Source: Rhodoplanes elegans
GTDB taxonomy: Bacteria; Pseudomonadota; Alphaproteobacteria; Rhizobiales; Xanthobacteraceae
Reading direction: 5' to 3'
Length of the DNA stretch: 64,000 bases
NCBI RefSeq assembly: GCF_016653355.1
Contig: NZ_NHSK01000076.1
Location: 62,001 to 126,000, forward strand
Each line of letters opens with the position of its first letter. Position 1 is the stretch's first letter. Under the pieces are notes generated by a model. It saw only the letters and a list, made by a program, of their open reading frames with translations. It searched no databases and was not told the DNA's origin. A program made the translations under genes and the position numbers. This document shows, piece after piece, positions 6,031 to 28,237 of this stretch.

Positions 6031-6375
6031 GGTGCGGCTGGTCGCTGCCAAGGCGGACGCCGAGGCCTAATCCAAGGCGCTCGCCGAAACGAACGACACC
6101 ATGCGGATCGAGGTGGCGTCCGGCGACGTCGTGCAGCGCTGGTGGCGGCCGATCTATGCCTTCGAGCTGACACTCGAATGCGCGGTCTGCTGGGCGCTCG
6201 CGACTTGGGCGGTCAACGCCTTGGGACTTCTCTCGCTGTACTGGGGCCCGCGCTTCGGCGTCCTCGGCGTGTACGTCAACGGCCGCTCGCGCGAGAAGAA
6301 GGCGGCGCTCACCGGCCAGCCCGCCCCGACCGCGATCAATCCCCTCGTAAAGGCTGCGGCCCGGAAGGTGCGCGA
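6030..6375 (+). pseudogene. 3-TM GTA/phage holin remnant
   Basis: Remnant of a small three-helix holin of the GTA-holin type. After an in-frame TAA at 6068-6070, the frame reads ETNDTMRIEVASGDVVQRWW, then one hydrophobic stretch (LECAVCWALATWAVNALGLL), and the family-typical end FGVLGVYVNGRSREKKAALTG. The 5' part is joined directly to the decayed DUF2163 reading frame without a start of its own. This suggests a deletion fused two genes that in intact modules are separated. At 6375 an ATG opens a new frame (MTILSELADVAWRAVAGLL) that is cut after 19 residues by the transposase fragment. Confidence 0.65.
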
Positions 6376-10607: not shown

Positions 10608-11591
10608 CTATTTGACGTTCCAGGGGGTGTCCTTCCACATCTGCTGCAGGTTCGCCTCGACGCCGGCGAGCTCGGCGGCGTACGCGGCCGGCGGCAGGAA
10701 CCGCATCGGGGCGTAGATCCCGGCGACCTTGGCGACGAACTCCGGATCGGCCGCCGTCTTCGCCACCGCGTCGACCAGCCGGTCGCGCAGCTCCGCCGGG
10801 ATTCCCTTCGGCGCGCCGACGCCGCGCATCGACGCGAACACCATGTCGAAGCCCTGCTCCATGAAGGTCGGCGTGTCCTCGGCGATGTTGACGCGCTTGA
10901 CGCTCATCTGGCCGAGATTGCGGAACGGGCTGCCGCCGGCGACGTACTGCTTGGCCTCGCCGATGTTGATGGCGCCGAGGACGATGTGCTTGCCGACGAG
11001 CGCATTGCGGACCGCCGAGGCGCCCGCGAACGGAACGTGGGTCAGCTTGGTGCCGGTGAGCCGCTCGAACGCCATCATGGCGAGATGGTCGTCGGAGCCG
11101 ACCCCGGTGGTGCCGACCGTCACGGCCCCCGGCTTCTCCTTGGCGTAGGCGACGAGATCCTTCAGCGACTTGATCGGGCTGTCGACGTGCACCGAGAAGC
11201 CGCCCGGATCGTCGAGCAGGTTGCCGAGCAGCTCGTACTGGCGCCAGTTGAACTTGGTGGTCCGCTCGATCGGGATCGACAGCACGTTCGGCGTGTTGAG
11301 GAAGCCGATCGTGTAGCCGTCGGGCGTCGATTCGGAGAGCGCCGTGAAGCCGATCTCGCCGCCGGCGCCGGGACGGTTGACGACCGCGATCTTGGCGCCG
11401 CCGCCGATGTACTTCTCCAGATAGGTGGCGAGGACGCGCGCGGTCAGGTCGGTGGAGCCGCCGGGCGCGTAGGCGACGATCATGGTGATCGGCTTCTCCG
11501 GCCAGGCCGCCCGGGCCGGGCCGGTGCCGAGCAGGGCCGTGGTGGTTCCGGCGAGGCCCAGTTCGAGAAATGTCCGCCGCGTCGCGATCAT
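10608..11591 (-). CDS. Tripartite tricarboxylate transporter binding protein (TctC/Bug)
   Basis: 327-aa periplasmic solute-binding protein of the TctC/Bug family. A twin-arginine-like signal (TRRTFLELGLAGTT) ends near AARA; the mature part begins WPEKPITMIVAYAPGGSTDL. Family landmarks follow: the PGAGGEIGFTAL loop near residue 75 that holds the carboxylate ligand, and FAGASAVRNAL. It is the binding component of the transporter formed with the TctA and TctB homologs directly upstream. The ligand is a carboxylic acid, probably the substrate of the dehydrogenases in this operon. Confidence 0.92.
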   Translation of the reverse strand: MIATRRTFLELGLAGTTTALLGTGPARAAWPEKPITMIVAYAPGGSTDLTARVLATYLEKYIGGGAKIAVVNRPGAGGEIGFTALSESTPDGYTIGFLNTPNVLSIPIERTTKFNWRQYELLGNLLDDPGGFSVHVDSPIKSLKDLVAYAKEKPGAVTVGTTGVGSDDHLAMMAFERLTGTKLTHVPFAGASAVRNALVGKHIVLGAINIGEAKQYVAGGSPFRNLGQMSVKRVNIAEDTPTFMEQGFDMVFASMRGVGAPKGIPAELRDRLVDAVAKTAADPEFVAKVAGIYAPMRFLPPAAYAAELAGVEANLQQMWKDTPWNVK

Positions 11592-11627
11592 CGAAGTTCC
11601 TCCAGCTCGTTTGTCTCGTTGGATCGG

Positions 11628-13124
11628 TCAGGCGCGCAGCACCTGCCGTTTTCGCTTCAGGGTCGGCACCAGCGCGGCGAGCAGCAGCAGCGCCGAGACG
11701 CCGAGCATGCCGGCGGCGATGGGCCGCGTGACGAAGACGGACGGGTCGCCCTGGGACAGCAGCAGGGCGCGGCGCAGGTTCTCCTCGAACATCGGCCCGA
11801 CCACGAAGCCGAGCATCAGCGGAGCGACCTCGCAACCGAGTCGGCGGCAGACGTAGCCGAGCACCCCGAAGGCGGCCATGAGACCGACCTCGAAGACGCT
11901 GTTGTTGAGCGAGTAGGTGCCGATCGCGCAGAACACCAGGATGATCGGGAACAGCACCGAGTAGGGCACGCGCAGCAGCCGCACCCACAGGCCGATCAGC
12001 GGCAGGTTCAGCAGGACCAGCGTCACGTTGCCGATCAGCATGCTGGCGATCATGCCCCAGAACAGCGCCGGCTGGGTGGCGATCACGGCGGGCCCGGGCT
12101 GGATGCCCTGGATCATCATCGCGCCGATCATCAGCGCCATGATGGCGTTCGGCGGCACGCCGAGGCTGAGCATCGGGATGAAGCAGGCCTGCGCGGCGGC
12201 GTTGTTCGCCGATTCCGGCCCGGCCAGTCCCTCGATCGCGCCGCGGCCGAACTCCTCCGGCCGGCGCGAGACCTTCTTCTCCAGGGCGTAGGAGGCGAAC
12301 GACGCCAGGGTGGCGCCGCTGCCCGGCAGGATGCCGAGCAGGATGCCGAGGATCGTGCCGCGCAGGCTCGCCGGCCAGGCCCGGGCGAAATCGGTGCGCG
12401 ACGGCCACAGCCGGCTGATCTGCGCCGTCGTCTGGCCGCGCCCGCCGGTCTCCTCCAGGCTAACCACCACCTCGGCGAGGCCGAACATGCCCATCGCCAG
12501 CGGCACGAAGCCGATGCCGTCGTAGAGCGTGGTGACCTCGAAGGTGAAGCGCTTTTCGCCGGTCGAGATGTCGATGCCGACGCAGGCCAGCAGCAGACCG
12601 AGCAGCACCATGGCGATAGCCTTGGGGATCGATCCGCTGGCCAGCACCACGGCGCCGATCAGGCCCATGGTCAGCAGCCCGACATACTCGGCCGGGCCGA
12701 ACATCACGGCGATGTCGGCGAGCGGCGGGCCGGCGAGCGCGATCACGAAGGCGGTGGTCAGGCCGGCGAACAGCGAGCCGAGGGCGGCGACGGCGAGCGC
12801 GGCGCCGGCGCGGCCCTGCTGCGCCATCGCGTAGCCATCGAGGCAGGTGACCACCGAGGAGGCCTCGCCCGGCAGGCGGACCAGGATGGCCGTGGACGAG
12901 CCGCCGTACTGCGCGCCGTAGAAGATGCCGGCGAGCATGATGAGCGAGCCGGTCGGCGGCAGATAGAACGTCACCGGCAGCAGCATCGCCACCGTGGCGG
13001 TGGGGCCGAGCCCCGGCAGCACGCCGATCAGGGTGCCGAGCAGGGCGCCGACGAAGCAGAACAGGAGGTTGTCGGGAGAGATGGCGATCCCGAGCCCGTA
13101 GGCGAGATTGGTGAAGACGTCCAT
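11628..13124 (-). CDS. tctA: Tripartite tricarboxylate transporter large permease TctA
   Basis: 498-aa membrane protein with about 12 helices, the large subunit of TTT-family secondary carriers. Typical landmarks are GVLPGLGPTATVAMLLP near residue 38 and its internal duplicate GILPGSGATLASFASY in the second half, plus YGGSSTAILVRLPGEASS near residues 71-88. The ATG at 13124-13122 overlaps the TctB stop by one base (TGATG), which fixes the start. Works with TctB and the periplasmic TctC of the same operon. Confidence 0.93.
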   Translation of the reverse strand: MDVFTNLAYGLGIAISPDNLLFCFVGALLGTLIGVLPGLGPTATVAMLLPVTFYLPPTGSLIMLAGIFYGAQYGGSSTAILVRLPGEASSVVTCLDGYAMAQQGRAGAALAVAALGSLFAGLTTAFVIALAGPPLADIAVMFGPAEYVGLLTMGLIGAVVLASGSIPKAIAMVLLGLLLACVGIDISTGEKRFTFEVTTLYDGIGFVPLAMGMFGLAEVVVSLEETGGRGQTTAQISRLWPSRTDFARAWPASLRGTILGILLGILPGSGATLASFASYALEKKVSRRPEEFGRGAIEGLAGPESANNAAAQACFIPMLSLGVPPNAIMALMIGAMMIQGIQPGPAVIATQPALFWGMIASMLIGNVTLVLLNLPLIGLWVRLLRVPYSVLFPIILVFCAIGTYSLNNSVFEVGLMAAFGVLGYVCRRLGCEVAPLMLGFVVGPMFEENLRRALLLSQGDPSVFVTRPIAAGMLGVSALLLLAALVPTLKRKRQVLRA

Positions 13125-13597
13125 CAGAACGGCCACGCGTTCAGGGGCAGCTTGGCGCCCCAGATGAAGATGGCGACACACGCGAAGGACAGCACGGTAC
13201 CGACCACCAGCGACTGCAGGACGCGGGGACGGTCGCACGCGAAGGTCGACAGGAAGACCGTGAGCATGGTGGCGAAGACGAGCCCGAGCCGCTCGACCGT
13301 GAAGGCGAACAGGACGACGCAGGCCGTGACCACGACCAGCGGCCGTAGCGACGCGATCGACGGCAGCCGGCCGCGCTGCCGCAGGCCCTGCAGCAGCACG
13401 ATCAGACCGAACAGGATCAGCAGCGAGGAGACTAGCGTCGGCACGAAGCCGCTCTGGATCTCGCCCGCCCGCCACACCGCCATCTGGCGCGAGAAGACGA
13501 GGCCGAGGGTCCCGATCGTGACGAACAGCGCACCGGCGGGAAGGTCGGTGCGGTCCTCCACCTCCGCGGGGAATCGGTCGGAGTCGGTCTCGTCCAT
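13124..13597 (-). CDS. tctB: Tripartite tricarboxylate transporter small subunit TctB
   Basis: 157-aa small membrane subunit with four predicted helices (GALFVTIGTLGLVFS, PTLVSSLLILFGLIVLL, PLVVVTACVVLFAFTVERLG, VVGTVLSFACVAIFIWGAKL). Sequence is poorly conserved in the family, but length, topology and position before tctA are standard. The ATG at 13597 has a strong AGGGAGG ribosome site. The final IWGAKLPLNAWP ending is typical of the family. Confidence 0.88.
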   Translation of the reverse strand: MDETDSDRFPAEVEDRTDLPAGALFVTIGTLGLVFSRQMAVWRAGEIQSGFVPTLVSSLLILFGLIVLLQGLRQRGRLPSIASLRPLVVVTACVVLFAFTVERLGLVFATMLTVFLSTFACDRPRVLQSLVVGTVLSFACVAIFIWGAKLPLNAWPF

Positions 13598-13683
13598 CGT
13601 CGCCTCCCTGAAACGTCCCCGGTCGAACGCCGGGTCTGCATCGTCGGCGCGCGGCGCGTGCGCCGCGGACGGAGGTCGTGGCG

Positions 13684-14598
13684 TCAGGCGGCGTCGCCGC
13701 ACCGGTCGGCGGCACGCGGCGCGGGGTTGGCGCGGCCGCTGTCGGCGACTACCGACAGCCACGACAGGGCCGCGTCGGCGCCCGCCGGCTCGGCGGCGGG
13801 GGGGAGTTCGTGGAGGGCGTCGGCGGTGCGGGCGAACAGCGCCCGCACGCCGGGCGTGACGCAGGGCGCGACCCCGGCCAGCAAGAGCTGGTCTTCCGCC
13901 TCCTCGACCTCGTGCAGGCGCCGTTCCGCGTGGAGAACGTGGGTGCGCACCAGCATCTCGAGGAAGGCGCGCAGCGGCGCGGCGTCGAAATCCTTGAGGT
14001 TGTCGTGCAGGGCGTCGACCAGCTTCAGCCGGCGGGCGAGCACGAAGGTCTCCACCGTGAGCGCTTCGAGGCCCTTCATGAAGATGCTGCGCAGCAGCTT
14101 CAGGGTCACGGCGTCGCCCGCCTCGCCGGTCAGCACCGTCACGGGCGCCTTCACGGCGGCGAGCAGGTCGCGCAGATCGGCGGCGCCGTCGCCGGCGCAG
14201 ATCAGCCCGGTCTCGGCCCGCTTGAGCGAGATGCCGCCCATGATGGCGACGTCGACGAAGCGCACGCCCGCCGCCTGCGCGGCGACCGCGGCCGCACGGA
14301 TGTCGTCCGGCGAGGCCGTGGTCATGTCGGCGAACACGGTGCCGGGCCGCAGGAACGGGAAGCTGGCGCGCGCCACCGCCAGCGCCTGCCCGCCGGTGAC
14401 GGCGGACAGCACCAGATCCGCCCCGGCGAGCCACGCCCCGGGGGCGTCGTGCAGCGGCGCGCCGATCCGCGAGGCGAGGTCGCGGGCCGCCTGAGACGGG
14501 TGGGCGTCGCAGAGATCGGAAACCGAAATGCCCGCCTCGGCGAGCGCAGTGACGTAACAGCGGCCGACTTCGCCGCAGCCGACGACAACAATCCTCAT
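13684..14598 (-). CDS. NAD(P)-dependent oxidoreductase, DUF1932 C-terminal domain
   Basis: 304-aa protein related to beta-hydroxyacid/6-phosphogluconate dehydrogenases. N-terminal Rossmann motif MRIVVVGCGEVGRCYVTAL; FADMTTASPDDIR and VDVAIMGGISL follow; TLKLLRSIFMKGLEALTVE is the catalytic-helix region, with Lys before the invariant-type helix. The C-terminal domain matches the DUF1932 type. First gene of the operon, with a strong AAGGAGG ribosome site. It gives the operon a third, unrelated dehydrogenase, perhaps for a beta-hydroxy intermediate. Substrate unknown. Confidence 0.85.
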   Translation of the reverse strand: MRIVVVGCGEVGRCYVTALAEAGISVSDLCDAHPSQAARDLASRIGAPLHDAPGAWLAGADLVLSAVTGGQALAVARASFPFLRPGTVFADMTTASPDDIRAAAVAAQAAGVRFVDVAIMGGISLKRAETGLICAGDGAADLRDLLAAVKAPVTVLTGEAGDAVTLKLLRSIFMKGLEALTVETFVLARRLKLVDALHDNLKDFDAAPLRAFLEMLVRTHVLHAERRLHEVEEAEDQLLLAGVAPCVTPGVRALFARTADALHELPPAAEPAGADAALSWLSVVADSGRANPAPRAADRCGDAA

Positions 14599-14638: not shown

Positions 14639-15099
14639 TCGTGCGTCGCGTCCAGTGCTCGTCGCATCCGGATTGTTGCGGACGCGACCTGCCGGCGCGA
14701 CGCGAGACGGGGACCGCGAGCTCCGGCCGACGTCCGGGCCGCTCAAACGAGTTGAGCACACCGGAAGTCAGCTCTATTTATCGCCGATAATTGCAGGGAA
14801 CTCAGACCCTGGAAGCGGCCGGCGCGACGGGCGCCCGACGGACGAGCGGCCGCTCGGGCCTGTCGGCCTCCCTGAGCGCGCCACCGCCGGGACGGGCCGC
14901 GTCCCTGACCGGCTGCGACTGTGTACTTAGATTGTATCCGCGAGCGATGCCGGTCGAGCCCGTCAGGGCTTCGAAAAACTCGAACCAGACGTCAGCTCGA
15001 TGCACATCAACGCCCACCGCTCGGCGGCGTGTGGAAAAGGAGGGGCTTCCAAGCAGCCAATCGGCCGTTCACGCGGCGGGCGAGCGACGATAATGCACA
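14639..15099. other. Intergenic region, nothing recognised
   Basis: About 460 bp between the start of the catabolic operon and the endolysin remnant. Contains no family-like frame on either strand. Given the phage remnant just downstream, it may be further decayed prophage DNA. Confidence 0.5.
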
Positions 15100-15429
15100 C
15101 GCTGGCGCGCGAAGCACGGTCTGCACGACAGGAGCGTCCGCAACATCTCCGAGGAGGAGCTGCAGGACATCTACCGCGGGAACTACTAGGTCCCGATGGT
15201 CGGCGACGCCTGGCCCAAGGGGCCCGACCAGATCGTATTCGACACCGCGGTCAATTCCGGGACCGGCCGCGCTCCGCAGATCATGGGCACCGCCATCGGC
15301 GTCGCCACCAGAAACCCGCAGGAGCTGGCGGCGCTCGCGTTCCGCTCCGCCGACACGGTCGGCATCGTCAAGCGCGCCTGTGCCCGGCGTGCGAGCTTCT
15401 ATCGGTCGCCCGCGAGCGCGGCCGCATAG
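15100..15429 (+). pseudogene. Phage endolysin (GH108-type muramidase) remnant
   Basis: Fragment of a glycosyl hydrolase 108 family peptidoglycan hydrolase. The frame reads AKHGLHDRSVRN, ISEEELQDIYRGNY, an in-frame TAG at 15187-15189, then VPMVGDAWPKGPDQ and IVFDTAVNSGTGRA, and ends with a KRACARRASFYR stretch. The family normally has tryptophan where the stop lies (the YW of I-Y-R-x-x-Y-W), so TGG to TAG is the simplest change. The N-terminal catalytic glutamate region is absent. About 100 of roughly 180 residues remain. It is a phage lysis-gene relic 9 kb from the tail remnants. Confidence 0.6.
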
Positions 15430-15755: not shown

Positions 15756-16766
15756 ATGCGCACCGGCTTGGATCGCGCCGAGCTGTTCGAGGAGAGGATC
15801 GCGACCGACGCCGTCGGCTTCGCCGAGGCGACGATCGCCGGGCTGCTCGCGTTCGTCGGCTCCAGCACCGCAGCGAAGCGCAAGCTCGGCCTGAAGGCGG
15901 TGAGCCGCCGGGCCGACGGTTGGCCTGCATGGTATGTCTGGTTGGCGGGGCGAACCGACGCCTTCGAGATCGTGTTGGTTCCCTCGGACGGCGACGGCGC
16001 GACGGGCGTCGATGGGATCGAGCTGGCGATCCGCTGCTTCCCCGATCCCGCCGACGAGACGCTGTTTGCGACCTTCACGGACGGGGAGCAGGAGGCACGG
16101 ATTTCGGCCCTCTTCGATCGGACCGGCACGCCCGCCGTCGGCGCGGCCGGCGATCTCGATCCGAGCCTCTATCACGTCGGCACGATCGGTCTGGTGCCGC
16201 GGGCCGGCGGCTGGGTCGACCTCACGCTGTCGACCCAGGACGTCTGGTGCGAGATCGAGACGTCGGCGTGCGGACCGCGCCGGCGCCGGTCGGTCCCCGG
16301 GACCGCCCTGTCGGCGCCGATCGTCGATCTCCTGGTCTGCGCCCATGCCCTGGTCGGCCGGCAGCCGCCGGCGGCCGTCGAGATCCGGTCGGCGCCGGGC
16401 CTCGTGTGGCATCTCGGTCCCGGTGACAGCGCCACGGTCCGTCCGGACCCGGACCTGTCCGCCCTCGAGATCCGCGTGACCGGGCTGCCGCGCTTCGGGG
16501 TTCCGGTCGATCGGCAGAGACGGGCGGCGGCCCGGCTGGACGACGCTGCGGGCGGCCGATTGCTGCTGTGGCCCGCCGGACCGGAGCGTCCGCCTGCGGT
16601 CGCGCCGTTCGATCTCGCCGCCTGGTGGGACGCCGCCGGGTGGCGACTGCCGCCGATCGGGGCCATGTGCGGCTGCCATGCGGGCGAGGTCGGCGTCGCC
16701 GGACCCGACGAACGCGACGAGCCCGCGTCGTCTCGTCCCACGGTCCGCCAGGGAGGTCGCGCATGA
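15756..16766 (+). CDS. Unknown soluble protein with C-terminal CxCH motif
   Basis: 336-aa protein that I do not recognise. No signal peptide or membrane helix is visible. Residues 1-110 are alpha/beta with many Asp and Ala residues (FVGSSTAAKRKLGLKAVSRR; GWPAWYVWLAGRTDAFEIVL). The middle is beta-rich with Trp at regular intervals. Near the end, IGAMCGCHAGEVG holds two cysteines and a histidine that could bind a metal; the last 30 residues are disordered-looking. It starts after GGGAGG with MRTGLDRAE. The stop overlaps the next start (ATGA at 16763-16766). First gene of the cassette, downstream of FNR-like boxes. It could be a cofactor or metal carrier, but nothing proves that. Confidence 0.7.
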   Translation: MRTGLDRAELFEERIATDAVGFAEATIAGLLAFVGSSTAAKRKLGLKAVSRRADGWPAWYVWLAGRTDAFEIVLVPSDGDGATGVDGIELAIRCFPDPADETLFATFTDGEQEARISALFDRTGTPAVGAAGDLDPSLYHVGTIGLVPRAGGWVDLTLSTQDVWCEIETSACGPRRRRSVPGTALSAPIVDLLVCAHALVGRQPPAAVEIRSAPGLVWHLGPGDSATVRPDPDLSALEIRVTGLPRFGVPVDRQRRAAARLDDAAGGRLLLWPAGPERPPAVAPFDLAAWWDAAGWRLPPIGAMCGCHAGEVGVAGPDERDEPASSRPTVRQGGRA

Positions 16767-17023
16767 GCGCCGACCCGGTCACCCGCCGTGCCTTCCTCGC
16801 CTTCCGGCTCGCCGGCGCGCCCGACCGGGAGCCCCGCGAGGAGACCGCCCCCGAGACCCCCGACGACCCCTTCGCCTCCTACGACATCGCGTGTGCGCTG
16901 GTGAACGAGGCGCGACCGTTCCTCGCCGACGAGGCCCGCCGGTACGAAATCAGCATGGAGAACCGAACCGACCTCGAGATCTGTAAGGCGATCTTCGCCA
17001 AGGCTGCGCCGCCGACCGACTGA
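16763..17023 (+). CDS. Small unknown protein with RRAF-type N-terminus
   Basis: 86-aa protein coupled by ATGA overlap to the gene before it and preceded by AGGGAGG. The start MSADPVTRRAFLAFRLAG resembles a twin-arginine motif but lacks the hydrophobic core of a Tat signal. Residues 20-40 are a Pro/Glu-rich linker, followed by a helical part with two cysteines (DIACALVNEARPF, DLEICKAIF). Similar RR-F starts occur in small redox-chaperone proteins such as NapF, but no iron-sulfur cysteines are present. Function unknown; context suggests an accessory factor for the membrane/MBL pair downstream. Confidence 0.65.
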   Translation: MSADPVTRRAFLAFRLAGAPDREPREETAPETPDDPFASYDIACALVNEARPFLADEARRYEISMENRTDLEICKAIFAKAAPPTD

Positions 17024-17113
17024 CGCATCCCCCGACGACAGCCGACCGACACGGGCCTCGGCGTCCGAACTGTGTCGAAGAGCACTGTGTCGAACCTACC
17101 CAGGGAGGCCCAC

Positions 17114-18433
17114 ATGGGGGCTCAATCCGGAACCGCGACGGAGCGGTACGGCGAGGGGTGGCTGGAGGAGCGCAAGCTGACCGCCCGCTGGCCGTGGCCC
17201 GTAACGCATGCCGTCAACGTCGTCTGCCTGCTGTCCGTGTTCTTCGTGACCTGGTGGATCTTCCAGGATCCGCGCGGGATCATGCGGCTCTACACGCCGT
17301 ATGTCGGCTACATGTACACCCGTTGGCTGCTCATCATCCTGATCTGGATGGTCTACATCTTCCAGTTCTGGCCGATGCGCCGCGTGCAGCTCGAGACCTG
17401 GCATCCGCTGGTCAAGGCGATGATCGCGCTGCCGGTCGCCGTCGCGATCATGTTGCTGGTGATCCACGGGTTCTTCCAGTGGTTCCTGGGCTCGCTCGGG
17501 ATCACCTACTTCAACCCCGAGCGCACCGCCGCCTTCCCGCGCATGACCCGGTTCTTCGCCGAGGAGTACGCGGCGCTCGCGATCCTGATGTTCGCCGCGC
17601 TGGCGAGCTGGCTGTCGCCGGCCTGGGTGGTCGGCATGGAGCGGGCGCCGTGGCGGAACGAGCCCCAGCCCGTGCAGGGAATCACGATTCTGATCGTGAC
17701 CTTCTTCCTCTCGACGGTGCTGTATTTCGTCACCATGCATCCGCACATGGGCATCCTCTACTATCCGTGGCAGCAGTTCACCGCGGTATCGCCACCCTAC
17801 TGGGAGGATTTCGCCAACACGGTCAGTGGCAACTTTCACATCTCGTGGATTATGTGCGCGACCGTCGTCGTCTGGTTGGTCGAGACGGTCTGGGAGCGTT
17901 GGCCGTTCAAGCTGATCAGGCACGCCTGGACGCGTCGGGTCGTCACCTTCTTCGGCATCGTGGCGATCGCCTGGGCCTTCCACCTGTTCTTCTACTTCGC
18001 GCTGGAGCTCTACATGGGGCCGGTGATCCGCGGCACCCGCAACGAGAACGCGCCCGATTGGCGGTGGCTTCACGTCGGCGAGATCATGATCTTCTTCCTG
18101 CTGCCGGCGCTCTATCTCCACTTCTACTGCGGCAACAGGCCGACCCGGTTCTCGACGCCCGTCAACGTGGCGCTGCGGACCCTGATCGTCGCGATCGGCG
18201 GCGTCGCGCTGATGATCGTCTATTACAACATCAGCCACCTCGCTCTGGGGACCCAGCGCGGCGTCTCGCAACCCGAGCAGTTCCCGATGATCCCGACCAT
18301 CTGGCTCATCAACGTGATGCTGCTGCATCACTGGTACATGGACAACTGGCCGGCTTGGCGCCTGACGGTCCCGCGGACCGCCGAGGACGCCGCGCCCGTG
18401 CGGCCGCAGATCGCCGCCGTTCCGGCCGAGTGA
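17114..18433 (+). CDS. Ten-helix histidine-rich membrane protein, unknown
   Basis: 439-aa integral membrane protein with about 10 predicted helices. The ATG at 17114 has AGGGAGG at ideal spacing; an in-frame ATG at 17072 is rejected. Histidines and aromatic residues lie within or at the ends of helices: FVTMHPHMGILYYPWQQF, GNFHISWIM, AWAFHLFFYFALELYMG, WLHVGEIMIFFLLP, LYLHFYCGN, YYNISHLALG, LLHHWYMDNWPAW. That pattern is common in haem-, metal- or quinone-binding membrane enzymes. I do not recognise the family; length and motifs do not match Amo/Pmo, NarI or cytochrome b. It is followed by a 40-aa peptide and an exported MBL protein, which suggests a membrane complex. Confidence 0.75.
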   Translation: MGAQSGTATERYGEGWLEERKLTARWPWPVTHAVNVVCLLSVFFVTWWIFQDPRGIMRLYTPYVGYMYTRWLLIILIWMVYIFQFWPMRRVQLETWHPLVKAMIALPVAVAIMLLVIHGFFQWFLGSLGITYFNPERTAAFPRMTRFFAEEYAALAILMFAALASWLSPAWVVGMERAPWRNEPQPVQGITILIVTFFLSTVLYFVTMHPHMGILYYPWQQFTAVSPPYWEDFANTVSGNFHISWIMCATVVVWLVETVWERWPFKLIRHAWTRRVVTFFGIVAIAWAFHLFFYFALELYMGPVIRGTRNENAPDWRWLHVGEIMIFFLLPALYLHFYCGNRPTRFSTPVNVALRTLIVAIGGVALMIVYYNISHLALGTQRGVSQPEQFPMIPTIWLINVMLLHHWYMDNWPAWRLTVPRTAEDAAPVRPQIAAVPAE

Positions 18434-18444
18434 GGAGATTCGTC

Positions 18445-18567
18445 ATGTCCGACACCCTCAAGATGAGCTCCGGCTTCGTGGTCGGCATCGGCGTGGGCAT
18501 CGCCCTCTACTTCGCCGTGGTCGCGCTGCTGCCGATCGTCGGCAAGATGAACCTGGTCTTCCTGTGA
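18445..18567 (+). CDS. 40-aa single-TM peptide
   Basis: Short gene between the 10-TM protein and the MBL protein, 11 bp after the former, with ribosome site TGAGGAGA. One membrane helix, GFVVGIGVGIALYFAVVALL, with a short polar N-terminus. Such peptides (compare CydX, CcoQ or PufX in other systems) stabilise membrane complexes. Its conserved place between two larger genes supports that it is real. No named family. Confidence 0.7.
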   Translation: MSDTLKMSSGFVVGIGVGIALYFAVVALLPIVGKMNLVFL

Positions 18568-18626
18568 CGGCGGCGCGCGGTGCCGCGCGCCGGCGCCGCG
18601 CCCGTGTCACGACACGGAGCTTCGTC

Positions 18627-19880
18627 ATGTCCGAACAGAAACCCGAGGTCAGCCGCCGCACCTTCGCGGGCGGCGTCGCGGCCGGCACGCTCGCCGGCGC
18701 GGTCGGCACCATGGGCGTGTACTCCTACTCGCCGTGGCGCCAGCGTCACTTCGTCAAGGCCGAGCCGACCCGCCGTCAGATCGGCGAGGTGAAGAGCGTC
18801 AAGGTGACCAACATCAGCGAGACGAGCTGGTTCGACAACCGCACGCTGATGAGCGACATCCGCGGCGCCGGCGGCCTCCTGGTCAACCAGTACACCTACA
18901 ACTGGGCGCCGTTCACCGACGTCAAGGGCAAGCTCGGCAAGGGCAGCTACGAGCAGGGCGTACGCAACATCCAGCCCTATCTCGCCAAGGCCAATCTGGA
19001 GGACGCCTGGGCGTTCCAGATGGAGAATGCCGTCAACCCGCTCAACTCGGGCGGCTTCTCGGCGCTGATCGAGGTCGAGACACTGGAGGGTGAGACCAAG
19101 CGGATCCTTCTCGACTCCGGCTGGTCCTTCGACTGGATCGACAAGTCGTTCCAGCGCGAGGGCATCGACAAGATGCTGGCCGAGAACAAGATCGACATCT
19201 TCATCGTCTCGCACGAGCACTTCGACCACTTCTGGGGCGTCCCGGTCGTGTTCAAGTACGCGCCGACTATCAAGACCTACTATCCGAAGGGGTTCTATGC
19301 CGAGGGTCTCGACTACTTCAACGTCGCCGGCCACCGCGGCGAGCGCATCGAGACCCAGCCCGGCCTCACCGTGTTGTTCCCGGGCGCCGCGCTCTACAAC
19401 TTCCAGACCCCGATCATCTGCCGAGTGTTCGGCGAGCAGTCGCTGTTCTTCAACGTGAAGGACCGCGGCCTCGTCACCATCACGGGCTGCTGCCATCAGG
19501 GCATTCTGCAGTTCGCGTCGGTGGCGCAGCGCGCCGTCGAGGCCAAGAAGCTCTACGGCCTTTATGGCGGCCTGCACGTCTCGCCGTTCGAGGAGTGGGA
19601 TCCGAAATACGACGACCTCGTCGCCGTGTTCAAGAAATGGGGCTTCGAGAAGGTCGCTTGCAATCACTGCACCGGCATTCTCACGGCCCGCAAGCTGCAG
19701 GAGGCCGGCATCGGCATCGTCAGCGGCACGGCGCGGTACCGCTCCAAGGATACGGCCTATCTGGGCAACGGCGACCAGGTGACGTTCGCCATGAACGACG
19801 ACGACAAGCCGGCCGTGCTGGTCCCGGGCGGCTCGGCGTCGGCGGCGCCGGCCCAGGCCGGCGGCGGCGTCAAATACTGA
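18627..19880 (+). CDS. Tat-exported metallo-beta-lactamase-fold protein
   Basis: 417-aa protein with a Tat signal (SRRTFAGGVAAGTLAGAVG, residues 10-28) and an MBL-fold domain. Metal-ligand motifs: HEHFDH at about residues 196-201, GCCHQG at about 287-292, and GGLHVS near 316. The ACNHCTGIL block near 344 is typical of the MBL branch that includes dihydropteridine ribofuranosylaminobenzene phosphate synthase-like proteins. The enzyme would act in the periplasm or be membrane-anchored by its uncleaved signal. The C-terminus is a Gly/Ala-rich tail. It ends the cassette and is followed by a strong hairpin. Substrate unknown; the linked 10-TM protein suggests a membrane-bound process. Confidence 0.85.
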   Translation: MSEQKPEVSRRTFAGGVAAGTLAGAVGTMGVYSYSPWRQRHFVKAEPTRRQIGEVKSVKVTNISETSWFDNRTLMSDIRGAGGLLVNQYTYNWAPFTDVKGKLGKGSYEQGVRNIQPYLAKANLEDAWAFQMENAVNPLNSGGFSALIEVETLEGETKRILLDSGWSFDWIDKSFQREGIDKMLAENKIDIFIVSHEHFDHFWGVPVVFKYAPTIKTYYPKGFYAEGLDYFNVAGHRGERIETQPGLTVLFPGAALYNFQTPIICRVFGEQSLFFNVKDRGLVTITGCCHQGILQFASVAQRAVEAKKLYGLYGGLHVSPFEEWDPKYDDLVAVFKKWGFEKVACNHCTGILTARKLQEAGIGIVSGTARYRSKDTAYLGNGDQVTFAMNDDDKPAVLVPGGSASAAPAQAGGGVKY

Positions 19881-21732: not shown

Positions 21733-23472
21733 TCACGACTGTCGCGTCGTCGGTCCTGGGCCGCTGTGGGCTCCGCCGGCGTCGGCGCCGGTCGTCGTTC
21801 GCGGGTCGAGACGCGAGACCACCCGGCCGTCCTCCAGCCGGACGATCGCGTCCATGCGATCGAGCCGCGCCGGCCGGTGGGTCAGCAGCATGAGCGACCC
21901 GACGCCGGGGTCGTCGAGTAGTGCATCGAGCAGCCGCGCCTCGGTGTCGGGGTCGAGCCCCTCGGTCGGCTCGTCGAGAATCAGGATCGGCCGGCTTGCG
22001 ACCAGGGCGCGGGCGACGAGCAGGCGGCGGATCTCGCCGCCCGAGAGCTTGGCGCCATGGGCGCCCACGAAAGTGTCGAAGCCGTCCGACAGCGCCTCGA
22101 CGAAGGGCAGGATCTGCGCGATCCGGCACGCCGCGCGCAGGCGCTCCTCGTCGGCGTTCGGATCACCGAGCAGCAGATTGTCCCGGATCGTCGCGGCGAA
22201 CAGATGGTCGCGCTGGCCGACGAAGGCGATCCGGCTGCGCACCGCCTCGCCGGTCAGGCCGCCATAGGGGACGCCGCCGAGCGCGAGCCCGCCCGCGTGC
22301 GGGAGCGCGAAGCGCATCGCGAGCTGCGCCAGCGTCGATTTCCCCGCGCCGCTCGGCCCGACCACGGCGATCCGCCGGCCGGCCGGGAGGTCGAGCGTCA
22401 CGCCGTCGAGCGTGTCGCGCGATGCGCCGGGATAGCGGAACGTGACGGCGTCGAAGTGCAGATGGGTGGCGGACGGCACCGGCACGGGGTCGGCCGGATC
22501 GGGGGCGCCGGTCGGCCGGTCGGCGATCTCGAACACCCGGCTGGCCGACGCGACGACGGCTGGCATCGCCTGCACGGCGAGCGGGACTGCGGCGACGGCG
22601 TCGAACAGCGCGAGGCCGAGGAGCGCCAGCATCGGCAGGTCGGCCGCCGCCAGCGCTCCGGCCGCCACGACGGGCAGGCCGAGCAGCAGGACCGCCACCA
22701 GCAGGACATGGCCGGCAAGCAGGAGTCCGGCGCTGCTCAGCGCCGCGGTGTTGGACAGCACGCGCTCGTCGGCGACGAGGGCGTCGCTCGCGGCCAGCGT
22801 GGCGCGGCGATGCAGCCCGTCGGGATCGTAGACGGCGAGCTCGGCCAGGCCTTCGACCTCGTCGACGAGACGGGCGCCGAGCGCCGCCGTTCCGGCCGTC
22901 AGCCGGACGGCCGCGGGGGCGCCGGCGCGCAGCAGCACGAGCGGCAGGACGAGGCCGGCGACCGCCAGCAGCACGGCCGCGAGGGCGGCGATCCGCCGGT
23001 CGTAGGCCGCCATCGCGAGGACCGACGGCACCGCGATCGCGAGGCCCGCGGCGAGCGGCCCGACGACGCGCAGGAACGCGTGCTCGAGCCGGTCGATGTC
23101 GCCGCGCAGGCGGGCGAGCAGATCGCCGTCCGTCCGGCCGCGAAGATTTCCCGGGGCGCCGCGCTCCAGCCGCGCGAACAGCCACGGCCGCAGGCCGGCG
23201 ACGAAGCGCAGCGTCGCCTCGTGGCCGATCACCCGCTCGGCGTAGCGGCCGGCGGTGCGGATGATCGCGAGGCCGCGGATCACGGCGGCGGGCGTGAAGA
23301 AGTTCATGGTCACGCCGGCGGCCCCGGCCAGCGCCATGCCGGTGATGAACCAGCCGGCCGTCGCCATGAGGGCCACCTGGGCGAGGCCGACGATCGCGGC
23401 GAGCAGGACGGCGAGCGTCATCCAGGCCGCATGCGGCCGCATCAGTCGAACGAGCCGGAGGACGACCGCCAT
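21733..23472 (-). CDS. cydC: Thiol reductant ABC exporter subunit CydC
   Basis: 579-aa half-transporter that with CydD exports glutathione and cysteine to the periplasm, needed to assemble cytochrome bd. Six membrane helices in the first 300 residues. The ATPase domain is complete: Walker A GPSGAGKST near residue 371, signature LSGGEIRR near 477, Walker B ILILDEPTEGLD. Stop-codon spacing to cydD is 6 bp, so the two are co-translated. Last gene of the cydABXDC operon. Confidence 0.95.
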   Translation of the reverse strand: MAVVLRLVRLMRPHAAWMTLAVLLAAIVGLAQVALMATAGWFITGMALAGAAGVTMNFFTPAAVIRGLAIIRTAGRYAERVIGHEATLRFVAGLRPWLFARLERGAPGNLRGRTDGDLLARLRGDIDRLEHAFLRVVGPLAAGLAIAVPSVLAMAAYDRRIAALAAVLLAVAGLVLPLVLLRAGAPAAVRLTAGTAALGARLVDEVEGLAELAVYDPDGLHRRATLAASDALVADERVLSNTAALSSAGLLLAGHVLLVAVLLLGLPVVAAGALAAADLPMLALLGLALFDAVAAVPLAVQAMPAVVASASRVFEIADRPTGAPDPADPVPVPSATHLHFDAVTFRYPGASRDTLDGVTLDLPAGRRIAVVGPSGAGKSTLAQLAMRFALPHAGGLALGGVPYGGLTGEAVRSRIAFVGQRDHLFAATIRDNLLLGDPNADEERLRAACRIAQILPFVEALSDGFDTFVGAHGAKLSGGEIRRLLVARALVASRPILILDEPTEGLDPDTEARLLDALLDDPGVGSLMLLTHRPARLDRMDAIVRLEDGRVVSRLDPRTTTGADAGGAHSGPGPTTRQS

Positions 23473-23478
23473 GCGCGC

Positions 23479-25293
23479 TCAGCCCATCCAGCCCGGCACG
23501 AAGCCGGCCGACCGCACGAGCGCCGCGAAGCGGCCGTCGGCGGCGCGCAGCTCCGCCTCGGACCCAGCCTCCGCGATCCGGCCGCTCTCCATGACGACGA
23601 TCCGGTCGGCGTGCCGCAGCGTCGCCAGCCGGTGGGCGATCACCAGCATGGTGCGGCTCTCGCGCAGCCGGGCGAGGCTCCGCTGCACCACGGCCTCGGT
23701 CTCCGCGTCGAGATGCGCCGTCGGCTCGTCGAGCAGCACGAGCGGCGCCTCGCGGTAGAAGGCGCGGGCGAGGCCGAGCCGCTGCGCCTCGCCGCCCGAC
23801 AGGGCATGGCCGCCGCTGCCGACGAGTGTATCGAAGCCGTCGGGAAGCGCTGCGATTCGCTCGGCGATCGCCGCCGCGCGGGCCGCCTGCAGGATGCGGT
23901 CGCGGTCGGGGGCGGGGTCGCCGAGGGCGATGTTGGCGGCCACGGTGCCGGTGAACAGGCGCGGGCGCTGCGGGATGTAGGCGATGCGGCGGCGGAAGCC
24001 GGCGAGATCCAGGTCGTCGAGATCGCGGCCGTCGATCAGGACGCGGCCGCTGCTCGGCCGGACGAAGCCCATCAGCAGCGCCAGCAGGCTCGACTTTCCG
24101 GCCCCGGACGCGCCGACGATCGCGATCGTCTCGCCCGCCGCCACGTCGAGGGTCACGCCGTCGAGCGCCACGCGCCCGTCCGGATAGGCGAGCCGCACGT
24201 CGTGGAACGCGACGGCGGTGCCGGCCGACGATGGGGCGTGCAGTGACTGCGCGCGCGGCGCCGGCTCCGTGGGTCCGGCGCGCCGGCCGGCGCGGGCGAG
24301 GTCCGGCATGGCCTCGAAGGCGACCAGCCGCTCCGCCGCGCCGAGCGCCTCCATGCGGGCGTGATAGGCGGTGCCCATGGCGCGCAGCGGCAGGTAGAAC
24401 TCCGGCGCCAGCAGCAGCACGAACAGGCCGTGCTGGTAGCTCATGTCGCCCCACAGCAGGCGGAAGCCGATCAGCACCGCGACGATCGCGATCGACATGG
24501 TGGCGAAGAATTCGAGCGTGAGCGCCGACAGGAAGGCGAGGCGTAGCACCGCCATGGTGTCGCGCCGATAGGCGTCCGCGGCCGCGGCGACCGCCTCGAT
24601 CATCCGCGCCCCGGCATTGTAGGCGCGCAGCGTCGGCAGCCCCTGGATGGCGTCGAGCAGATGGCCGGACATGCGCTGCATGCGGCCCCATTGGCGCTGG
24701 TTCAACGCCTCGGCGCCCTTGCCGATCAGCACCATGAAGACCGGGATCAACGGCGCCGTGACGGCGAAGGCGAGCGCCGAGATCCAGTCGAGCGGCGCGA
24801 CGACGAGAACGATTCCGAGCGGGATCACGGCGGCCTGGACGACGGCCGGCAGGTAGCGCGAGAAGAACGGCTCGACGCCGCGCGCCGCCTCCGAGAGGAT
24901 CGCGACGATCTCGCCGGACGGCCGCTCCGCGAGCCCGGCCGGGCCGGCGCGATCGAGCTTGGCGAGCAGTGCGGCGCGCAGCGCGGGAACCACCCGCATC
25001 GCCGCCGAGAAACCGAACCGGTCGGCCGCCCAGGCGGCCGCGGCGCGCAGCAGCACGACGGCGACCAGCAGCACGAACGGGAGCGCGAGCGAATCGCCGA
25101 GCGGCTCCGTGATGCGGAGCGACTCCGTGACGCGTCCCTCGAACAGCCCGTCGTGCAGGATCGTGGCGACCAGCCACGCCTGCGCCACGACGGCGATGCC
25201 GCCGAGGAGCCCGGCCGCGATCGCGAGGCGCAGCTCGCGCCGCGCGATCGGCCGTAGACCCCTGAGATACGTCGTTTCGGCTCGCGCGGTCAC
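23479..25293 (-). CDS. cydD: Thiol reductant ABC exporter subunit CydD
   Basis: 604-aa partner of CydC. Transmembrane domain in the first 310 residues; ATPase domain with Walker A GASGAGKSS, signature LSGGEAQR and Walker B LVLLDEPTAHLD followed by the H-loop region VIAHRLATL. The start is GTG at 25293. It lies 28 bp after cydX, in the usual order for bd oxidase operons with built-in assembly exporter. Confidence 0.95.
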   Translation of the reverse strand: MTARAETTYLRGLRPIARRELRLAIAAGLLGGIAVVAQAWLVATILHDGLFEGRVTESLRITEPLGDSLALPFVLLVAVVLLRAAAAWAADRFGFSAAMRVVPALRAALLAKLDRAGPAGLAERPSGEIVAILSEAARGVEPFFSRYLPAVVQAAVIPLGIVLVVAPLDWISALAFAVTAPLIPVFMVLIGKGAEALNQRQWGRMQRMSGHLLDAIQGLPTLRAYNAGARMIEAVAAAADAYRRDTMAVLRLAFLSALTLEFFATMSIAIVAVLIGFRLLWGDMSYQHGLFVLLLAPEFYLPLRAMGTAYHARMEALGAAERLVAFEAMPDLARAGRRAGPTEPAPRAQSLHAPSSAGTAVAFHDVRLAYPDGRVALDGVTLDVAAGETIAIVGASGAGKSSLLALLMGFVRPSSGRVLIDGRDLDDLDLAGFRRRIAYIPQRPRLFTGTVAANIALGDPAPDRDRILQAARAAAIAERIAALPDGFDTLVGSGGHALSGGEAQRLGLARAFYREAPLVLLDEPTAHLDAETEAVVQRSLARLRESRTMLVIAHRLATLRHADRIVVMESGRIAEAGSEAELRAADGRFAALVRSAGFVPGWMG

Positions 25294-25321
25294 GGGCCCG
25301 GCTGCTGCGTCCAGAACGCGA

Positions 25322-25438
25322 TCAGATCCGGCCGCCGTCCGGCGGCTCGAATTCGCTCTGGAACTCGTACCACATCACGTTGATGACGCCGAAGGCGAGC
25401 GCCGCCGTCACCCCGAGGATCCAGGCAAAGTACCACAT
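25322..25438 (-). CDS. cydX: Cytochrome bd small subunit CydX
   Basis: 38-aa membrane peptide of cytochrome bd. The start MWYFAWILG is diagnostic of CydX/CbdX; one helix follows (VTAALAFGVINVMWYEF) and a Glu-rich end (QSEFEPPDGG). It stabilises the haem b595/d centre in characterised bd oxidases. Too short for routine gene calling. Lies 21 bp after cydB. Confidence 0.93.
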   Translation of the reverse strand: MWYFAWILGVTAALAFGVINVMWYEFQSEFEPPDGGRI

Positions 25439-25459
25439 GGTCGGCTCCGGTTCCGGGTT

Positions 25460-26611
25460 TCAGTAGGCGTGGTGCTTCTTGGCCTCGATCTCCGCGACCG
25501 TGACCTTGCCCCACATCGCGCGATAGCACCACAGCGTGTAGCCGAGGACGATCGGCAGGAAGATCACGACGGCGAAGAACATGATCGTCAGCGTCAGCCG
25601 GCTCGACGGCGCGTCCCAGACCGTGAGGCTGGAGCCCGGCTGCGAGCTCGACGGCATGACGAATGGGAACATCGCCGCGCCGGCCGTGCCGATGATGCCG
25701 GTCATGCCGAGGCTGCTTGCCACGAAGCCGAGCCCGGGGCGGTCCATGCCCGACAGGGCGCGGGCCGCCAGCGGGGCGAGGAGCCCGGTCGCCGGCAGCA
25801 GCATCGCGATCGGTAGCGTGGCGTAGACGGCGAACCACGCGCCCGCCTCGCGGACGACCTCCTTGGCGAGCGGGTTCGGCAGCGCCGAATGGGCGGGCTC
25901 CGAGACGATACGGTAGCCGTCGATCCCGAGCAACACCCAGATCCCGCCGAGCGCGAAGGCGCCGGTCACGACCAGGGCGAGCAGCGAGACGGCGCGCTTC
26001 GCCCGCGCCGCGACGGCGCCCTCGGTGCGGATCTGCAGCCATAGCGCGCCGTGCAGCGCGAGCATCGCGACGCTGATCAGCCCGGCGAGCAGCGCGAACG
26101 GGTTGAGCAGCGGCAGCAGCGCCCAGATGAACGTGCCCTCGTAGTGCGGCTTGAGGAACGCGTCGAGATGGAACGGCACGCCCTGCAGCAGGTTGCCGAA
26201 GGCGACGCCGAAGATCAGGGCCGGCACCAGGCCGCCCGCGAACAGCCCCCAGTCCCAGGCGTTGCGCCAGCGGGGATCCTCGAGCTTCGAGCGATAGTCG
26301 AAGCCGACCGGCCGGAAGAACAGCGCGACCAGCACCAGCAGCATCGCCAGATAGAAGCCCGAAAAGGCGGCCGCGTAGACGGCCGGCCAAGCGGCGAAGA
26401 TGGCGCCGCCGGCCGTGATCAGCCAGACCTGGTTGCCGTCCCAGTGCGGGCCGACCGTGTTGATGACGACGCGACGCTCGGCGTCGTCGCGTCCGACGAA
26501 GGGCAGGAGCATGCCGACGCCCATGTCCATGCCGTCGGCGATGGCGAAGCCGATGAGCAGCACGCCCACCAGCACCCACCAGACCAGCTTCAGGGTCTCA
26601 TAGTCGAGCAT
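25460..26611 (-). CDS. cydB: Cytochrome bd ubiquinol oxidase subunit II
   Basis: 383-aa subunit II with about nine helices. Conserved blocks: KLVWWVLVGVLLIGFAIADG, DGMDMGVGMLLPFVG, PHWDGNQVWLITAGGAIFAAWP, FRPVGFDYRSK. Ends with AKKHHAY. Forms the oxidase with CydA, sited in the cytoplasmic membrane. 27 bp after the cydA stop. Confidence 0.96.
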   Translation of the reverse strand: MLDYETLKLVWWVLVGVLLIGFAIADGMDMGVGMLLPFVGRDDAERRVVINTVGPHWDGNQVWLITAGGAIFAAWPAVYAAAFSGFYLAMLLVLVALFFRPVGFDYRSKLEDPRWRNAWDWGLFAGGLVPALIFGVAFGNLLQGVPFHLDAFLKPHYEGTFIWALLPLLNPFALLAGLISVAMLALHGALWLQIRTEGAVAARAKRAVSLLALVVTGAFALGGIWVLLGIDGYRIVSEPAHSALPNPLAKEVVREAGAWFAVYATLPIAMLLPATGLLAPLAARALSGMDRPGLGFVASSLGMTGIIGTAGAAMFPFVMPSSSQPGSSLTVWDAPSSRLTLTIMFFAVVIFLPIVLGYTLWCYRAMWGKVTVAEIEAKKHHAY

Positions 26612-26638
26612 CGCGAGGTCCTCTCGGCGGCGTCGGGA

Positions 26639-28237
26639 TCATTCGGCGGGAACGAGGCGCGGCGCGGGCGCGGCGTCGGCCCGCGTGTCGGCGCGCTCGT
26701 GATGGTAGCGCCCGGTGTGGAGCGAGCTCGGGCCGAGCCTGGCGAAGCGCACCATCAGGTAGAGCTCGATCGCCAGCAGGATCGAGTAGAAGATCAGATA
26801 GGCCGCCATCGACGTGACGATGTCGGTCGTGGTCAGGGCCGAGGTGGCCAGGAAGGTCGGCAGCACCTCGCCGATCGCCCAGGGCTGGCGGCCGTACTCG
26901 GCGACGAACCACCCGGTCTCGCTGGCCAGCCAGGGCAGCGGGATGCACCACACCAGCACGCGAAGCAGCCAAGCGTTCTTCTCCAGCCGGCCGCGCGCCA
27001 GGAGATAGAACGAGGCGGCGAACAGGCCGAGCATCAGGAAGCCGAGCCCGACCATGATGCGGAAACTCCAGAACAGGTAGGGCACGTGGGGCACGCTGTC
27101 CCAGGCGGCCTGCCGGATCTGATCCTCGTTCGCGGTCGCGGGATCCGCGACGTAGCGCTTGAGCAGCAGCCCGTATCCGAGGTCCTTCTTGTGGCGGTCG
27201 AAGCTCGCGCGCGTCTCGGTCCCTTTGTCGCCGCTGCGCAGCTTCTCCAGCATCGCGTAGGCGACGGCGCCGGAGCGGACGCGCGTCTCCGCATGGGCGA
27301 CGAGCTCGTCGATGCCGAGCACCGGCTTGTCGATCGACCGGGTCGCGATCAGCCCCAGCGCCCAGGGAAGCTTGATCTCGAAGCTGTTCTCGCGCTTGTC
27401 CTGATCCGTGATCGCGACGACGTTGAAGCTGGCCGGCGGCGGCTGGGTGTGCCACTCGGCCTCGATGGCGGCGAGCTTCATCTTTTGGACGTCGCCGAGC
27501 TCGTAGCCGCTCTCGTCGCCGAGCACGATGACGGACAGCGAGGACGCGAGTCCGAACCCGGCGGCAACCGCGAAGGAGCGCTTGGCGAAGGCCACATCAC
27601 GTCGCTTCAGCAGATACCAGGCCGAAATTCCGATCACGAACATGCTCGCCGTCATGTAGCCGGCGGCGGTCGTGTGGATGAACTTCACCTGCGCGACCGG
27701 ATTGAGCAGGACCGCCGCGAAGTCGGTCATCTCCATGCGCATCGTCTCGGCCGAGAACTCGGCGCCGACGGGGTTCTGCATCCACGCATTGGCGACCAGG
27801 ATCCAGAGCGCGGAGAGGTTGGTGCCGAGTGCCGTCAGGAACACGACGAGGAGATACTGCACCTTGGAGAGCCGATCGCGGCCGAGCAGCAGAAGGCCGA
27901 CGAAGGTCGATTCGAGAAAGAAGGCCATCAGGCCCTCGATCGCCAACGGCGCGCCGAACACGTCGCCCACGTAGTGCGAGTAGTAGGCCCAGTTGGTGCC
28001 GAACTGGAACTCCATCGTCAGGCCGGTGGTGACGCCCAGCGCGAAGTTGATGGCGAACAGCTTCGTCCAGAACCGCGACATGTCCTGATAGATCTGCTTG
28101 CCGGTCATCACGTAGACCGACTCCATGATCACCAGGATCCAGATCAGGCCGATGGTGAGCGGCACGAAGATGAAGTGGTACATGGCGACGGCGGCGAATT
28201 GCCATCGCGACAGTTCGACGAAGGTCGGGTCGATCAT
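26639..28237 (-). CDS. cydA: Cytochrome bd ubiquinol oxidase subunit I
   Basis: 532-aa haem-carrying subunit I that oxidises ubiquinol and reduces oxygen with high affinity. Present: the haem-ligand histidine in AVAMYHFIFVPLTIGL (residue 20), the EGLMAFFLESTF segment with two acidic residues of the proton path, the long periplasmic quinol loop (Q-loop, about residues 240-330), and the hallmark GRQPWAIGEVLPT near 420. First gene of cydABXDC. Its length fits the long-Q-loop type. A perfect dyad lies 205 bp upstream. Confidence 0.96.
   Translation of the reverse strand: MIDPTFVELSRWQFAAVAMYHFIFVPLTIGLIWILVIMESVYVMTGKQIYQDMSRFWTKLFAINFALGVTTGLTMEFQFGTNWAYYSHYVGDVFGAPLAIEGLMAFFLESTFVGLLLLGRDRLSKVQYLLVVFLTALGTNLSALWILVANAWMQNPVGAEFSAETMRMEMTDFAAVLLNPVAQVKFIHTTAAGYMTASMFVIGISAWYLLKRRDVAFAKRSFAVAAGFGLASSLSVIVLGDESGYELGDVQKMKLAAIEAEWHTQPPPASFNVVAITDQDKRENSFEIKLPWALGLIATRSIDKPVLGIDELVAHAETRVRSGAVAYAMLEKLRSGDKGTETRASFDRHKKDLGYGLLLKRYVADPATANEDQIRQAAWDSVPHVPYLFWSFRIMVGLGFLMLGLFAASFYLLARGRLEKNAWLLRVLVWCIPLPWLASETGWFVAEYGRQPWAIGEVLPTFLATSALTTTDIVTSMAAYLIFYSILLAIELYLMVRFARLGPSSLHTGRYHHERADTRADAAPAPRLVPAE

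Follow-up and report, generated by a model that had tools for sequence, protein, structure and literature searches.

The metallo-beta-lactamase (MBL) superfamily is characterised by the metal motif HxHxDH and a further metal-ligand His later in the chain. For G3E GTPases, metal delivery is the natural reading of function, and the client list of the COG0523 GTPases is still poorly matched. In the operons of NiFe hydrogenase with HypB and of urease with UreG, enzyme genes adjoin the gene for a GTPase accessory of this superfamily. ComEC combines a membrane part with an MBL part.

Here we analysed a cassette of five genes, A, B, M, S and L, within a window of 64 kb (the whole stretch of DNA under analysis). 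Most relatives of the cassette resemble the HypB and UreG operons in that a GTPase accessory adjoins the enzyme genes, but the enzyme is an MBL protein (L) with an orphan membrane partner (M). The M–L pair likewise recalls ComEC, although the two parts are separate chains and M has no competence-family match. Judging by titles and the opening parts of abstracts, none of the open-licence PMC papers listed in our literature searches describes this operon.

Cassette Organization and Coding Evidence

The first-pass annotation had placed five same-strand genes at 15,756–19,880, and the open reading frames (ORFs) confirm this layout (Table 1), including the ATGA overlap that couples A and B, the 11 bp between M and S, and wider gaps elsewhere (90 bp between B and M, 59 bp between S and L). 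A purine-rich stretch lies just 5' of the start codon in all five genes. Compared with the Accumulibacter locus L008, pN/pS was 0.67 for A, 0.48 for B, 0.31 for M, 0.73 for S and 0.36 for L. Since amino-acid-changing differences are thus rarer per site than silent ones, all five ORFs look coding, a signal that is weak for A and for S (38 codons). The GC content of the cassette (67.4%, against 69.4% for the window) falls within the spread of windows of the same size.

Table 1. Genes of the cassette and FNR-like boxes upstream of it (positions in the window).
Feature	Position	Strand	Description
FNR-like box	14997-15010		One mismatch; ~0.7 kb further upstream, in a stretch without a clear gene
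FNR-like box CTGATCCAGATCAA	15675-15688	+	One mismatch; 67 bp before A
A	15756-16766	+	336 aa; stand-alone form of the domain otherwise N-terminal in the A-CobW GTPase
B	16763-17023	+	86 aa; small, RRxF(L/F)-type start
M	17114-18433	+	439 aa; integral membrane protein, 10 helices here
S	18445-18567	+	40 aa; corresponds to transmembrane helix 11 of fused M
L	18627-19880	+	417 aa; Tat-signal metallo-beta-lactamase-fold protein, HEHFDH motif

A tripartite tricarboxylate transporter cluster lies upstream of the cassette (10,608–14,598, minus strand), where Pfam confirms TctC and an NAD-binding/DUF1932 dehydrogenase. Downstream, four minus-strand genes (21,733–28,237) look by sequence like cydC, cydD, cydB and cydA, which encode cytochrome bd with its exporter. 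Towards the left end of the window, a plus-strand gene for a phage baseplate hub-type protein (5469–6170, Phage_phiJL001_Gp84_N) suggests a prophage or gene-transfer-agent remnant. The ORF at 15,196–15,429 was considered as a phage lysozyme, a reading left unconfirmed by Pfam (0 families).

Membrane Protein M Is an Orphan Family Conserved Across Phyla

When one genome per species was searched with M, 22 loci emerged, whose M proteins share 53–78% identity with the query over nearly the whole protein. Together with the window stretch and genomes G295, G003 and G004, these form a gene-order set of 26 loci. Locus L029, which has a masked stretch in M, was left out of the M alignment, distance test and tree; relatives in the alignments are one residue short at the C-terminus where they end at a stop codon.

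The window M has 10 helices, with the eleventh in S, and contains 13 His, 27 Trp and 19 Tyr residues, in agreement with the earlier description of a roughly ten-helix protein rich in histidine and aromatic residues. The remark that it matches no familiar family also held, as no significant match was found in Pfam, NCBIfam or PDB sequences. When 24 M rows were compared with Pfam and NCBIfam, none exceeded the cut-off in the tables (bit scores being known for ten rows, the window and L023), and neither phmmer nor a profile search of PDB sequences gave a significant match. The weak local matches comprised Ureide_permease in 11 of the 24 rows (best E 0.0012; no more than 18.1 bits in the ten rows examined, where the cut-off is 27), spanning about 65–82 residues, and DUF1761 in three.

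A structural model built on the L012 protein reached a middling pLDDT of 72.7. Foldseek returned 0 PDB matches at E ≤ 0.001 with this model, the first row being alternative complex III chain 6lod_C (E 0.093, TM 0.16), and the best VIA-align result was a GPCR (Z 6.3, rmsd 7.2, 174 residues aligned). Structure searches list mainly GPCRs, and we rejected this likeness because Z values of up to 6.3 are background for a helical bundle according to the tool's own note. The single weak genome match outside the family, in L007 (27% identity over 96 residues), to what we take to be an MBOAT-type acyltransferase, was considered chance. A likeness to particulate methane monooxygenase and to NrfD/ActC was also considered; neither family occurs among the Pfam matches of the 24 rows.

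M is sharply conserved, with 125 invariant columns over 25 rows. With the helices taken from the L012 model, the positive-inside rule is satisfied if the N-terminus is inside, with 18 Lys and Arg residues in six inner stretches against six in five outer loops, and we assign the two sides on this basis. In this predicted topology, 37 of 89 positions are invariant in the periplasmic loops against 24 of 109 in the cytoplasmic ones (mean conservation 0.856 against 0.761), as are 45 of 137 positions in the outer helix halves against 33 of 136 in the inner halves. The near-invariant polar residues include H209, H211, H242, H320, H375, D52, D315, E231 and E323 (window numbering), and of the five His, two fall in a loop predicted to be periplasmic and the other three within helices; 12 Arg are near-invariant as well. 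The clustering of invariant residues on the predicted periplasmic face fits an active or docking site there.

In 22 of the 25 aligned rows, M and its last helix form a single chain of 458–476 aa (as aligned) that ends in one extra helix. The M proteins of the window, L008 and L009 end before this helix, and a separate small ORF is present instead. By tblastn, the window S aligns to the C-terminal end of the fused M proteins from four loci (E 5.7e-6 to 6.8e-4). That the two are fused elsewhere suggests that S is physically a part of M. The 40-aa peptide had been likened to small subunits of respiratory complexes: it does belong to a membrane complex, but it equals the eleventh helix of M and is no respiratory subunit of a known type. 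In the M tree, the three two-chain loci group together (support 100/99), so the split or fusion happened once. The drawn root lies just at this group, so both directions, S splitting off here or being fused elsewhere, fit the tree.

L Is an MBL Protein with a Tat Signal, Tied to M

The window L matches Lactamase_B at 29.9 bits, above the cut-off of 22.7, and its L023 relative falls just below (22.6). The metal motif (HEHFDH or HEHWDH), H290, H317 and a CNHC stretch are kept in 24 of 24 L rows; L011, with a truncated L, was left out of this alignment and of the L tree. The closest structures are 7dck (E 1.1e-15) and 2p4z (5.3e-13), and 3h3e also aligns; all three are COG1237-type MBL proteins. 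The likeness covers the metal-motif stretches and the C-terminal half. Unlike 7dck, L carries a Tat signal and about 100 extra residues before the aligned part, and it is tied to M. PADLOC yielded no defence assignment that convinces, its hits LmuA (E 0.0023) and RTasMBL (E 0.028) both being for L.

An L-like protein (E ≤ 1e-10) occurs in eight of 299 genomes including the window's own, two of them holding full-length partners of M and six partial matches. In the five partial-match genomes examined (all six except G061), no match to M or A lies within 10–17 kb. L is thus derived from a wider MBL group. The relatives at L054–L058, at about 35% identity, have no M or A match nearby; their neighbours at L056 and L057 are genes that appear to encode a sirtuin, an ABM-type monooxygenase and an iron alcohol dehydrogenase.

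The Tat signal of the Rieske protein is not cleaved and serves as an anchor. The signal of L may likewise stay in the membrane, and one L relative weakly matches PF10399 (E 0.025), but no Fe-S domain was found in L. The signal region is conserved at a mean of 0.74, against 0.79–0.85 for the MBL parts. In several rows it contains small residues that would permit cleavage, so anchoring of L in the membrane is no more than a possibility.

The combination of a many-helix membrane protein and an exported MBL protein could also be that of a transport or secretion machine, in which M would be a channel or flippase and L would trim cargo outside, as in ComEC-type proteins. We consider this rather improbable. 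The MBL part of L is weakly like that of ComEC (E 0.0027, but 15.9 bits against a cut-off of 190), and the 12 near-invariant Arg of M could bind anions. The weak Ureide_permease matches of almost half of the M rows also speak for it, but they are short and below threshold in the ten rows examined, and no competence family is found among the Pfam matches of the 24 M rows.

Accessory Proteins A and B

A was suspected at first pass to be a cofactor or export accessory, and its counterpart in other loci supports the former: the A domain occurs in 24 of the 26 loci, in 22 of them as a CobW fusion after L, whereas the window and L008 have it as a separate gene preceding B. L009 lacks it, and the contig of L011 ends before its expected position. 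Profile–profile comparison of the window and L008 A proteins with the N-terminal half of the CobW fusions gave a probability of 97.7 (E 1.4e-12); in a two-sequence search the window A alone was a weak match at 6.6 bits (E 0.00044). Pfam confirms CobW and CobW_C in both of the fused relatives examined with it, and profile matches to them extend to the 22 loci with the fusion. The relatives' A-CobW proteins therefore share their C-terminal half with CobW/COG0523 (G3E) GTPases but differ by an extra N-terminal domain of about 300 residues; the window has no GTPase half.

Indeed, the window A matches 0 Pfam families, the GTPase domain PF02492 being absent. The 18-row alignment of the A domain, which includes the window and L008 and omits L013, L016 and L028 (where the A-CobW gene is present), has no Pfam match either (best E 0.042). 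Its fold, predicted on the L012 relative with a pLDDT of 90.7, has no PDB match at E ≤ 0.001, and the nearest structures, plant Bet v 1/START-like proteins (best Z 4.6), provide at most a hint. Of 398 sampled genomes, two gave a match to the domain, namely the window's own and that of G295; both carry M, and about 100 of the 398 fall outside the M search.

Neither the window nor L008 or L009 has a CobW protein, fused or beside the operon, and a profile search of the entire window gave no CobW and no PAS match. The window's genome contains ten CobW-domain matches, all on other contigs and none with an A domain; seven of these proteins align with the relatives' A-CobW from residue 259 on, i.e., over the GTPase half and the preceding linker. 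Metal loading in this organism would therefore have to rely on a general GTPase or proceed without one.

The B proteins share a twin-basic RRxF-type start and a short helical-looking tail in the alignment; after this start, the marked hydrophobic segment that a Tat signal would have is missing. A profile that includes B itself finds the window B at E 8.4e-18. That B assists export or maturation is conjecture.

Distribution, Gene Order and Inheritance

By record title, M carriers include Accumulibacter, Rhodospirillum, Rhodospirillales, Rhodobacterales, Methylocystaceae, Shewanella, Desulfovibrionaceae genera, Desulfomicrobium, Desulfobacterium, Desulfogranum, Desulfuromusa, Malonomonas and Deferribacteraceae; the M–L pair spans Pseudomonadota, Thermodesulfobacteriota and Deferribacterota. 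The carriers are probably mostly anaerobic bacteria. Of five further genomes from the genus of the window (one only 58% complete), two carry M; beyond the genus, M was found in two of 299 genomes across the phylum (the window's own and G295) and in one of 385 genomes of the class (the window's own), with the best few candidates per genome (e.g., five) scored in each search. It was not found in plasmid records. The family thus combines sharp conservation with rarity in the sampled genomes.

M adjoins L in all 26 loci, the contig of L011 ending inside L. Recurrence of the five genes together, named at first pass as a test of the cassette, holds for M and L, which recur in unrelated bacteria; the complete five-gene form with A alone, B, M, S and L was seen only in the window and L008. 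The conserved unit is M–L plus the A(-CobW) accessory.

A GntR/FCD regulator gene accompanies 19 of the 26 loci and a PAS protein gene 18, and chemoreceptor, histidine kinase or sigma-54 regulator genes stand beside some of them. The profiles behind these and the other gene-order counts, and those used to search the entire window, were built from the very loci scored, and their E-values are not independent; Pfam confirms GntR, FCD and PAS on one relative protein each. Such neighbours could suggest a periplasmic sensing or signalling unit that feeds the regulators, which we regard as highly improbable. Neither regulator gene is found in the window, L008, L009, L026, L027, L042 and the short contig L019, yet M and L are complete there, and the window's two nearest GntR genes score 34.3 and 32.7 bits against 227–366 for the operon GntR and are distant relatives.

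Members of the ExbB, ExbD and TonB gene clusters lie near the operon in L018 (10,058–13,652), L028 (12,342–16,116), L023 (5102–6132) and L027 (6654–8360), as supported by Pfam on four example proteins, with a dCache chemoreceptor beside them in L018 and L028. These neighbours hint that something related may be taken up by a TonB-dependent route or sensed.

The window M and L are closest to their Accumulibacter counterparts (75–78% and 74–76% identity), and the two same-genus copies are placed elsewhere than the window in both trees, which argues for horizontal transfer. The sparse distribution and the disagreement of the trees with taxonomy are consistent with this, indicating transfer between unrelated bacteria. 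Distances of M co-vary with those of L (r 0.93 over 23 loci) and of the A domain (r 0.90 over 17 loci), suggesting that the parts travel together, with shared ancestry alone yielding part of the correlation.

FNR-like Boxes and a Possible Redox Role

The FNR consensus is TTGAT-N4-ATCAA. In addition to the two boxes in Table 1, a third with one mismatch lies at 36,391, giving three in the window against 0.35 expected. Upstream of 24 other loci (up to 2.2 kb before the M frame, less where the locus is short, with the G295 locus left out), the only such box lies inside a gene in L028. The boxes had been taken to suggest low-oxygen expression: their presence here makes such control plausible for the window cassette, but the lack of conservation argues that it is not a property of the family.

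Low-oxygen expression would suit a respiratory or redox complex in which M binds haem or quinone and L is a redox or metal subunit, a reading we judge unlikely. Consistent with it are the many carriers in groups known as anaerobes, the Tat export of L, the FNR-like box in the window, the downstream genes read as cydABCD, a Rieske protein and a DsbD-type protein, and the five near-invariant His of M. Against it, the box is not conserved across loci, and the first 80 recurring neighbour clusters listed include no recognised gene for a cytochrome or for an Fe-S, flavin or molybdenum protein, with families run on examples and a map incomplete for L018, L019 and parts of L017 and L020. Furthermore, the only redox membrane family matched by any M row in Pfam or NCBIfam at E ≤ 5 was photosystem I subunit XI (E 0.089, two rows). 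The redox or haem role originally suggested for M thus received no direct support, as its recurring neighbours include no recognised redox partner gene.

Proposed Mechanism

We tentatively read the cassette as a membrane-bound metallohydrolase facing the periplasm, with the metal site of L made in the cytoplasm, and put the likelihood of this a little short of even. The reading builds on the observed gene order, conservation, family assignments, one- and two-chain forms of M/S and A/CobW, and co-occurrence of the parts. L would be folded and loaded with metal in the cytoplasm, aided by the A domain and perhaps by B, and the CobW-type GTPase fused to A in most relatives would act as the metallochaperone. 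The fusion of the A counterpart to a CobW/COG0523 GTPase points to metal-centre maturation. Tat exports folded proteins, and cytoplasmic metal loading of L therefore fits both A-CobW and the Tat signal.

Once loaded, L would be exported by Tat and may dock on M from the periplasmic side, where its conserved signal helix might hold it in place. M, completed by S as its final helix, would bind or deliver a substrate through the invariant His, Asp, Glu, Arg and Trp residues at this face, and L would hydrolyse the substrate that M presents. L relatives exist without M, so hydrolysis as such need not depend on M.

Significance

M is at least 53% identical between phyla, with its invariant columns and no recognised relative, which indicates strong constraint and probably a specific chemistry. 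The cassette would also add a new client for the COG0523 GTPases. A bolder reading, possible though doubtful, is that M represents a new class of membrane metalloenzyme that itself holds a metal or cofactor site on its periplasmic side. It would form one catalytic unit with L acting on a substrate from the environment that anaerobes use or respire, and would have spread by horizontal transfer with a new GTPase-fused maturation factor. The fixed partner L, the GTPase-linked accessory and the regulators make the function testable in named carriers, among them Malonomonas rubra DSM 5091, Desulfogranum mediterraneum DSM 13871 and Shewanella algicola JCM 31091.
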